From the NCBI GenBank assembly GCA_021234155.1, contig JAJEKV010000006.1, forward strand, positions 5,615,727 through 5,679,726: a DNA stretch of 64,000 nucleotides, read 5' to 3'. A program made the position numbers and the translations under genes. A model generated the notes under the pieces. That model worked only from the letters and a program-made list of their open reading frames with translations, was not told where the DNA came from and ran no database searches. The DNA comes from Isoetes taiwanensis. Lineage: Eukaryota > Streptophyta > Lycopodiopsida > Isoetales > Isoetaceae. Below are positions 49,147 to 51,049 of this stretch, piece by piece (position 1 is the first letter of the stretch; each line of letters starts with the position of its first letter).

Positions 49147-49332
49147 GAGAGAGAGAGAGAGAGAGAGAGAGAGAGAGAGAGAGAGAGAGAGAGAGAGAGA
49201 GAGAGAGAGAGAGAGAGAGAGAGAGAGAGAGAGAGAGAGAGAGAGAGAGAGAGAGAGAGAGAGAGAGAGAGAGAGAGAGAGAGAGAGAGAGAGAGAGAGA
49301 GAGAGAGAGAGAGAGAGAGAGAGAGAGAGAGA
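49147..49332. repeat. (GA)n microsatellite, 186 bp
   Basis: A pure GA dinucleotide run. Long open frames on both strands in this area (Arg-Glu or Leu-Ser repeats) are translations of the microsatellite and not genes. Confidence 0.98.
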
Positions 49333-50766
49333 TGCGTTGGCCACATGCTGACTTAGAGATGACGAGAGACAATACGAGAGATGGGAGAAGGGGAGAGATG
49401 GGTGAGAGTGGGTTTTGTTGACTCTCACCTCGAGAGAAAATTTCTCCCTAACAGCAGAGAGGGGCATTCTCATTACGTTTGACTGTTAGGGGGTACCCTC
49501 CGGAAATGGAAATATTCTATCCCCAAAAATATTTTCACGGCAGAACAGGGGTATGACAGCGGAATGCCATGGCGGCCCACAACCGATTCAGAACAGGGAC
49601 TTTCAATTCATAGCGGTTTTCGATTCATAGCTTTCGAGATTCACAGGGTGACTTCCGGATTCACAACCGTCCACAGATTCCTAGATTCAAGATTCATTTT
49701 AACAGAATAACACGATTTTGGTTTTAGAATAGGGTTTCTTCTTTTGATTTCTTCTTTCTTCTTTTTGAAGCGACCCTGCATTCAAATGAGCTTCTGAGCT
49801 TGCTTCTGAATGAATAGTTTTAAAAGAAAAGATATGGCACAGTATTGCTTGCTCCACAGTTTTTGACACAATTTTGCTTGCTCCAAAACATAGCTTCATT
49901 TGAATCCAGGTTTTTGCCATATCCAGTACAAATCCGGCAAGGCATGGCTTATTTGACCCATATCCAGTCCGGCAGGGCAAACCCATGCTCTATTTTATGA
50001 ATGTTATAAACTTGAATCCCCTGTTCATAAGCTTCTTAGCCACCCAAATAACCTGCAAATCTTCGGGCAAAGCTTGACAAATTTTAGAAGCCAAAGTGGA
50101 GATGAACCCACAATCTACAGTCGGCCAGATCTTTATAGCTGTGAAGGAAAGGGCATATGAAGAAAAGCAGACGTCATAGCTTCAAGCTTCAATTACAGCC
50201 ATCCCCTGCGCTCAGAGACATCTGTAACACAGCACAAAAAGGCTGACCTTAACAACTAGAAGTGGGTTCTTCTCCAGTTCCAGATTCCTTTAACTGTACA
50301 AATCTGTAAACAACAACTCATTCTTTGCAGAGGATCATGCTCGATAGTTTACTATAACAACAGAGCTGGCTGTATAGAGGCTTGTAAAAGACGAGAATAC
50401 AGTAGTAAATATGCTTATTCCGGCATTGAAGAGAGCCAAAACACCATGTTTCGGCTGGATTTCCACCGCTGTTAAACTCTTTGCCGTAAAGGCTTCAAGC
50501 TTCAAGCTTCAATCTGCACTGTATAAGCATAAGCACTATTGATGGTGGCCCTAAGCGTAAGCAGGGGATCTCCCCCCAAAAAAAAGAATCCCGGAAAACT
50601 TTTTGGTAAGAAAAATCGATATTTTTGGTCTTTTCCCTCTAACGGGCCTGGTTAAGGGACGAGAGATTATTATCTCTCATCATCTCTCACTCAATATACG
50701 GTATAAAAATTGTCTCTCGCCGTATAGCACGAGAGACAATTTTTTTTCGATCATGTGGCCGACGCA
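49333..50766. mobile_element. Inverted-repeat element inserted in a (GA)n tract
   Basis: The 1434-bp unit starts TGCGTTGGCCACATG and ends CATGTGGCCGACGCA, a 15-bp terminal inverted repeat with one mismatch. Further in, both ends hold GAGAGACAAT-type motifs and similar AAAAATATC or its complement, suggesting longer imperfect repeats. On each side the sequence passes straight into (GA)n. The interior has no recognised transposase; a minus-strand frame (49699-49986) has no domain. It is presumably non-autonomous. Long, imperfect inverted repeats would suit a MULE, but target duplication cannot be read within GA repeats. Confidence 0.7.
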
Positions 50767-51049
50767 AGAGAGAGAGAGAGAGAGAGAGAGAGAGAGAGAG
50801 AGAGAGAGAGAGAGAGAGAGAGAGAGAGAGAGAGAGAGAGAGAGAGAGAGAGGAGAGGAGGAAACTAAACCCTTTATCTGCCATGTCAGAATGCAAAGTA
50901 CCCAAATCTTTACGCTTACACACACACACAGAGAGAGAGAGAGAGAGAGAGAGAGAGAGAGAGAGAGAGAGAGAGAGAGAGAGAGAGAGAGAGAGAGAGA
51001 GAGAGAGAGAGAGAGAGAGAGAGAGAGAGAGAGAGAGAGAGAGAGAGAG
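50767..51049. repeat. (GA)n tracts, with short unique spacer
   Basis: GA runs at 50767-50852 and 50931-51049 flank about 65 unique bases and a CA run. Translated Arg-Glu and Leu-Ser frames here are artefacts. Confidence 0.97.

Follow-up and report, generated by a model that had tools for sequence, protein, structure and literature searches.

Some DNA transposons of plants settle in simple repeats, and those that sit in dinucleotide repeats, mainly TA, form a well-known group that includes Micron, TAFT, MuTAnT, SaTars and Ac-mMITEs. A stretch of 64,000 nucleotides from Isoetes taiwanensis, analysed here at its full length and called the window, contains a unit that is bordered on both sides by GA repeats, which raises the question of whether a transposon inserted into a GA tract at this place and whether elements of its family prefer such tracts. 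On balance, and with modest confidence, we read the unit as a non-autonomous DNA transposon, most likely a Mutator-like element (MULE), that inserted in a GA tract of an older dispersed repeat. That it belongs with the known dinucleotide-repeat elements is probable. The features of the locus are collected in Table 1.

Table 1. Features at the GA-bordered unit and the related repeat copy; positions are those of the window, and a point marks features given without orientation.
Feature	Position	Strand	Details
Host repeat copy without the element	47354..47647	+	15-base GA run at 47510-47524
Occupied copy of the host dispersed repeat	48837..51131	+	Interrupted
Left GA tract	49147..49332	+	Pure (GA)93
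Probable transposable element, non-autonomous	49333..50766	.	1434 bp; from inverted ends, pure GA at both borders, frames and Pfam
Left terminal inverted repeat	49333..49347	+	TGCGTTGGCCACATG
Left subterminal block	49349..49374	+	Inverted match, 22/26, to 50668-50693
Left GAGAGA cluster	49363..49437	+	4 motifs, 3 of them CGAGAGA
Right GAGAGA cluster	50660..50736	.	5 motifs in both orientations, 3 of them CGAGAGA
Right subterminal block	50668..50693	-	Partner of 49349-49374
Palindrome	50705..50744	.	15-bp perfect arms holding CGAGAGACAAT; between right terminal repeat and right subterminal block
Right terminal inverted repeat	50752..50766	-	14/15 to the left one
Right GA tract	50767..50857	+	43 perfect AG units, then an impure tail
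Segment without counterpart in the paralogous copy	50858..50929	.	72 bp, ending in CA repeats
Third GA tract	50930..51049	+	(AG)60; non-GA host-repeat homology resumes directly after

A unit with inverted ends that meets GA on both sides

An earlier note on this DNA had described a unit of 1434 bp with 15-bp inverted ends lying in GA repeats, and our analysis bears this out. The two ends, TGCGTTGGCCACATG and CATGTGGCCGACGCA, match at 14 of 15 positions, with the single mismatch at position 6 of the end, and GA abuts each of them. By arithmetic with equal base frequencies, two 15-base segments at given positions would match in at least 14 places by chance with a probability of about 4e-8. The unit starts with TG and finishes with CA, and its ends begin with TGCGT.

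To describe the coding content of the unit, we considered the 29 frames of at least 40 codons that overlap it; 11 extend beyond it through its ends or the GA tracts, and the remaining 18 are internal, with a maximum length of 96 codons. A Pfam scan of the 10 longest internal frames gave no match above the curated cut-off. Three of these 10 had sub-threshold matches, which we take for chance; the best (E 0.0087) scored 16.4 bits, the cut-off being 27, and covers a 21-residue stretch. We found no MudrA-type transposase among the 10 longest internal frames, as expected of a non-autonomous copy.

Elsewhere in the window, a Pfam scan of seven frames matched SLAC1, PLATZ and a zinc-finger model and left four without a match. 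The frame at 27007-27879 matches SLAC1 (E 3e-32; SLAC1-type anion channel), that at 36614-37129 matches PLATZ (E 5.2e-16), which is typical of plants, and that at 21582-22145 on the minus strand matches zf-C17orf113 (E 2.3e-16). The SLAC1 and PLATZ frames suggest plant nuclear DNA. The minus-strand frame at 19397-19906 looks by eye like the end of a hAT-type protein and has no Pfam match. The window also contains a palindromic element at 41034-41625, whose arms of 140 bp are 99% complementary with 224 bp between them and whose outer arms measure 54 bp (96%); it looks like a foldback or MITE-type element. A scan of the window for inverted-end elements with duplications of 8-10 bp returned two rows, both inside this palindrome near 41 kb. 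The scan is of no use as a control, because its exact 10-base seed misses the GA-bordered unit (mismatch at position 6).

The phase of the GA repeats limits the target duplication

The left flank of the unit finishes with GA and the right flank opens with AG. Comparing the two flanks, we observed full agreement at lengths of 3, 5, 7, 9 and 11, and no agreeing position at lengths of 2, 4, 6, 8, 10 and 12, indicating that an ordinary insertion here made a target duplication of odd length. This phase survives slippage, since slippage steps are whole GA units. Within (GA)n the parity of a duplication is therefore readable and its length is not; the phase permits 9 and 11 bp and bars 8 and 10 bp, except in the event of a single-base slip on one side. 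MULEs make target duplications of 8-11 bp, mostly 9, and a 9-bp duplication fits Mutator-like elements.

The GA tract is shared with a paralogous copy of the host repeat

The unit interrupts one of two copies of a dispersed repeat, which lie in the same orientation 1483 bp apart, the copy without the element being upstream. Outside the GA, the copies match at 67 of 71 positions (47354-47424/48837-48907), at 62 of 66 (47441-47506/49081-49146) and, with one gap column, at 73 of 81 (47567-47647/51050-51131). The short GA tract that the earlier note had placed in the second copy is indeed present, as a run of 15 bases at the place of the long left tract. All four runs of at least five GA units in the window sit either in the two repeat copies or between the parts of them that match, and the window has no CT runs of this kind. 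The GA tract thus looks like a component of the host repeat, and the short paralogous run supports the presence of GA in the repeat before the element arrived.

As an empty site, the paralogous copy compares cleanly on the left; on the right, 72 unmatched bases and a third GA tract intervene before homology resumes, and the comparison holds only in part. The CA run at the end of the 72 bases runs straight into the GA of the third tract. BLAST gives the paralogous GA run two placements, one at the beginning of the left tract (49081-49167) and the other at the end of the third (50992-51131, 79%), which makes its counterpart tract ambiguous, and about 40 purine-rich bases lie between the GA run and the resumed homology in the paralogous copy. 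At 48908-49080 the occupied copy carries about 170 bases for which the paralogous copy has just 16 bp. Part of 48908-49080 forms an imperfect inverted repeat with adjoining sequence (49049-49072/49106-49129). Because the right flank has no direct match to the paralogous copy, a larger rearrangement may have happened; either the locus records more than one event, or a larger block moved.

Judged by its sequence, the host repeat may be the LTR pair of a small retrotransposon. The polypurine stretch GGGAAGGGGAGGAA (48828-48841) sits directly before the second repeat copy, as a polypurine tract would. At the outer borders of the host repeat we found no duplication of 5-6 bases, the sole match, AGTAA (47354, 51113), lying inside the matching parts, and by eye we saw no primer site starting with TGG after the first copy.

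The element may have landed here by chance, with no preference, the GA being a feature of the host repeat; we give this somewhat less than an even chance. It concerns preference only and is compatible with a Mutator-like insertion, so that its odds do not add to those of the other explanations. The locus is a single case, both host-repeat copies carry GA, and many such targets would be on offer if the host repeat is abundant. On the other side, GA runs of at least five units make up only 407 of the 64,000 bases, any expansion included, and the unoccupied copy has a run of just 15 bases. A fair probability for a chance insertion is not possible, as the example was chosen for standing out.

The right side of the locus leads to a different proposal, that the element moved as one with its GA tracts. 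GA filler on an excised circle could have recombined into an existing GA tract, or recombination between GA tracts could have introduced a block of GA, element, GA, 72 bp and GA. The match to the paralogous copy does not resume before the third GA tract, the 72 bp between the second and third tracts have no paralogous counterpart, and the SaTar authors propose such a route, many flanks in their material being unfit for cut-and-paste (extract of PMC5907723). We nevertheless consider a joint move unlikely, since the flanks here fit a simple odd-length duplication and GA is found at this place in both host-repeat copies. Insertion of the transposon into the GA tract, as the earlier note had suggested, is well supported: each inverted end meets GA, the GA phase fits, and the paralogous copy has a short GA run and no element.

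The ends of the element resemble its target

Inside the terminal repeats lies a second inverted pair of blocks, whose match (22 of 26 positions, score 32) was reached by none of 500 dinucleotide shuffle pairs, the largest score being 26. The gap between terminal repeat and subterminal block is 58 bp on the right versus one base on the left, and once the palindromic stretch on the right is set aside, the two arms are alike over about 41 bp. CGAGAGACAAT occurs three times in the whole window, every time within the element, once on the left and twice on the right. As single-stranded DNA, the right-hand 127 bases (50640-50766) have a fold z-score of -4.45.

GAGAGA occurs nine times in the element, counting either strand; all nine lie within 110 bp of an end, and the middle has none. 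When the element was shuffled 1000 times, the count within 110 bp of an end had a mean of 0.17 and a maximum of 3, and none reached 9, the 110-bp limit having been set once the positions had been seen. Among 548 bins of 110 bp covering the window minus 47401-51100, none held three or more GAGAGA. With every GAGAGA this close to an end, the ends of the element resemble its target. Subterminal motif clusters have the look of transposase binding sites in several groups of DNA transposons. Plant BPC proteins, which bind GA, have the consensus RGARAGRRA; it has no occurrence in the element, although GAGAGA is frequent, and the ends thus lend no support to GA-binding host proteins as a bridge.

Further copies and the choice of superfamily

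We searched for further copies with two exact patterns of the left end. The pattern with GAGA before it, which detects copies in GA only, and the pattern without GA (the end and eight more bases) each had 0 matches in viral_contigs and 0 in genome_contigs, collections that are a poor place for plant DNA and may omit records of the window's own genome. BLAST of the whole element against the window found no second copy, returning the self-match and short weak stretches only. Allowing up to three mismatches, the end motif has four matches in the window against 1.13 expected, two of them beyond the element's own ends; that four was reached by 1 of 100 shuffles reflects the counting of the element's own two ends.

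Long terminal inverted repeats are usual in MULEs, if not universal. The repeats here measure 15 bp, or about 41 bp if the palindromic stretch on the right is left out of account, and this speaks against a Mutator-like assignment, as do the single copy and the fact that we saw neither a transposase nor an autonomous partner.

Other classes of element were weighed against the same ends and flanks. Subterminal repeats occur in CACTA elements; LTR insertions make 5-bp duplications, and LTRs as a rule have no inverted ends of 15 bp, inverted subterminal blocks or end motif clusters. The short inverted ends would suit a DNA transposon from a different superfamily whose duplication is odd, be it the 3 bp of CACTA-like elements or another length, and ends of 10-54 bp with 3-bp duplications are reported (extract of PMC4938662), but the ends begin with TGCGT, not CACTA, and we think such an origin rather improbable. 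Slightly less probable again is a solo LTR of a retrotransposon, which would account for the TG...CA ends and for flanks that match at length 5, also odd, but not for the 15-bp inverted ends, the second inverted subterminal block, the GAGAGA clusters at both ends or the lack of a second copy in the window by BLAST. hAT elements, which make 8-bp duplications, were rejected because the flanks share 0 of 8 positions at that length, barring a one-base slip, and Tc1/mariner, PIF/Harbinger and piggyBac, which target TA, TWA or TTAA, because pure GA stands next to the element on both sides.

Comparison with known microsatellite-associated elements

The likenesses and differences given here follow the available extracts of the cited papers. 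MuTAnT are TA-microsatellite-targeting Mutator-like elements of Medicago truncatula; like the present element they sit directly in a dinucleotide repeat, and their 9-nt duplication is odd, as required here (PMC4486113). Their empty sites have a mean of nine TA repeats, each flank at additional occupied sites has about 15, and the two flanks of AutoMuTAnT have 59 and 27; occupied tracts are thus on average longer than empty ones, a likeness to the present locus (PMC4486113). Unlike the present element, they use TA rather than GA, their inverted repeats have a mean of 47 bp against 15, 90% of them are 200-300 bp long, and they are known from 218 copies and a putative autonomous element (PMC4486113).

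SaTars, MULEs of guayule that target microsatellites and have further families in rice, sorghum and citrus, resemble the present element in being non-autonomous, in size (about 400-1700 bp in guayule), in also using diverse non-TA microsatellites and in having flanks that are sometimes complex (PMC5907723). They differ in the 10-bp duplications of guayule, which the GA phase bars here, and in inverted repeats of 40-250 bp against 15 bp (PMC5907723). Micron and TAFT likewise lie in repeat tracts, (TA)n, and differ in having TA as their main target. PMC12550479 reports a smaller share of Micron, from rice, in (CA)n or (GT)n, and PMC5907723 reports that sites of TAFT, from maize, expand after insertion from 6-8 bp to up to (TA)50.

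Nearest among the literature matches listed, none of which is a family with GA as its main target, are the Ac-mMITEs of pineapple, here set beside the present element by description only. Their flanks are dinucleotide repeats, GA in 22% and CT in 16.5%, and outside repeats they have 9/10-bp duplications; in contrast to the present element, they have TA as their main target (about 74%) and are very abundant MITEs (PMC8449440). The GA targeting that the earlier note had singled out as of interest is therefore weakened as something wholly new.

Discussion

We propose that a transposase encoded at another locus would bind the element at its inverted ends and at the subterminal clusters rich in GAGAGA, excise it and join it to the target with an odd duplication, most likely of 9 bp (AGAGAGAGA). 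Replication slippage would then have lengthened the GA on either side, from a run of perhaps 15 bases to 186 on the left and about 86 on the right. In this account we infer the superfamily and its transposase, the duplication length of 9 bp, the sequence of events and the lengthening of the GA. Growth after insertion had been raised before for these tracts, and it agrees with the published MuTAnT and TAFT cases.

Whether the family prefers GA is close to an even call, leaning slightly towards no. The insertion in GA says little about preference, since it is a single case, was chosen for standing out and lies in a host repeat that offers GA. More specifically, the element might aim at DNA like its own ends, a GAGAGA-binding protein also binding GA repeats and bringing the element there, with GA rather than TA as the main target; we regard this as improbable.

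For plant transposons in simple repeats more generally, the locus illustrates how repeat phase can constrain the length of a target duplication even where the duplication itself is invisible. Published proposals for why some of these transposons settle in simple repeats include a site-specific transposase and recombination of circles (extract of PMC5907723). The likeness of the subterminal motif to the target may set the present element apart, as a lead rather than a result, and a subterminal motif equal to the target repeat would give the question of why such elements settle where they do a direct binding test.
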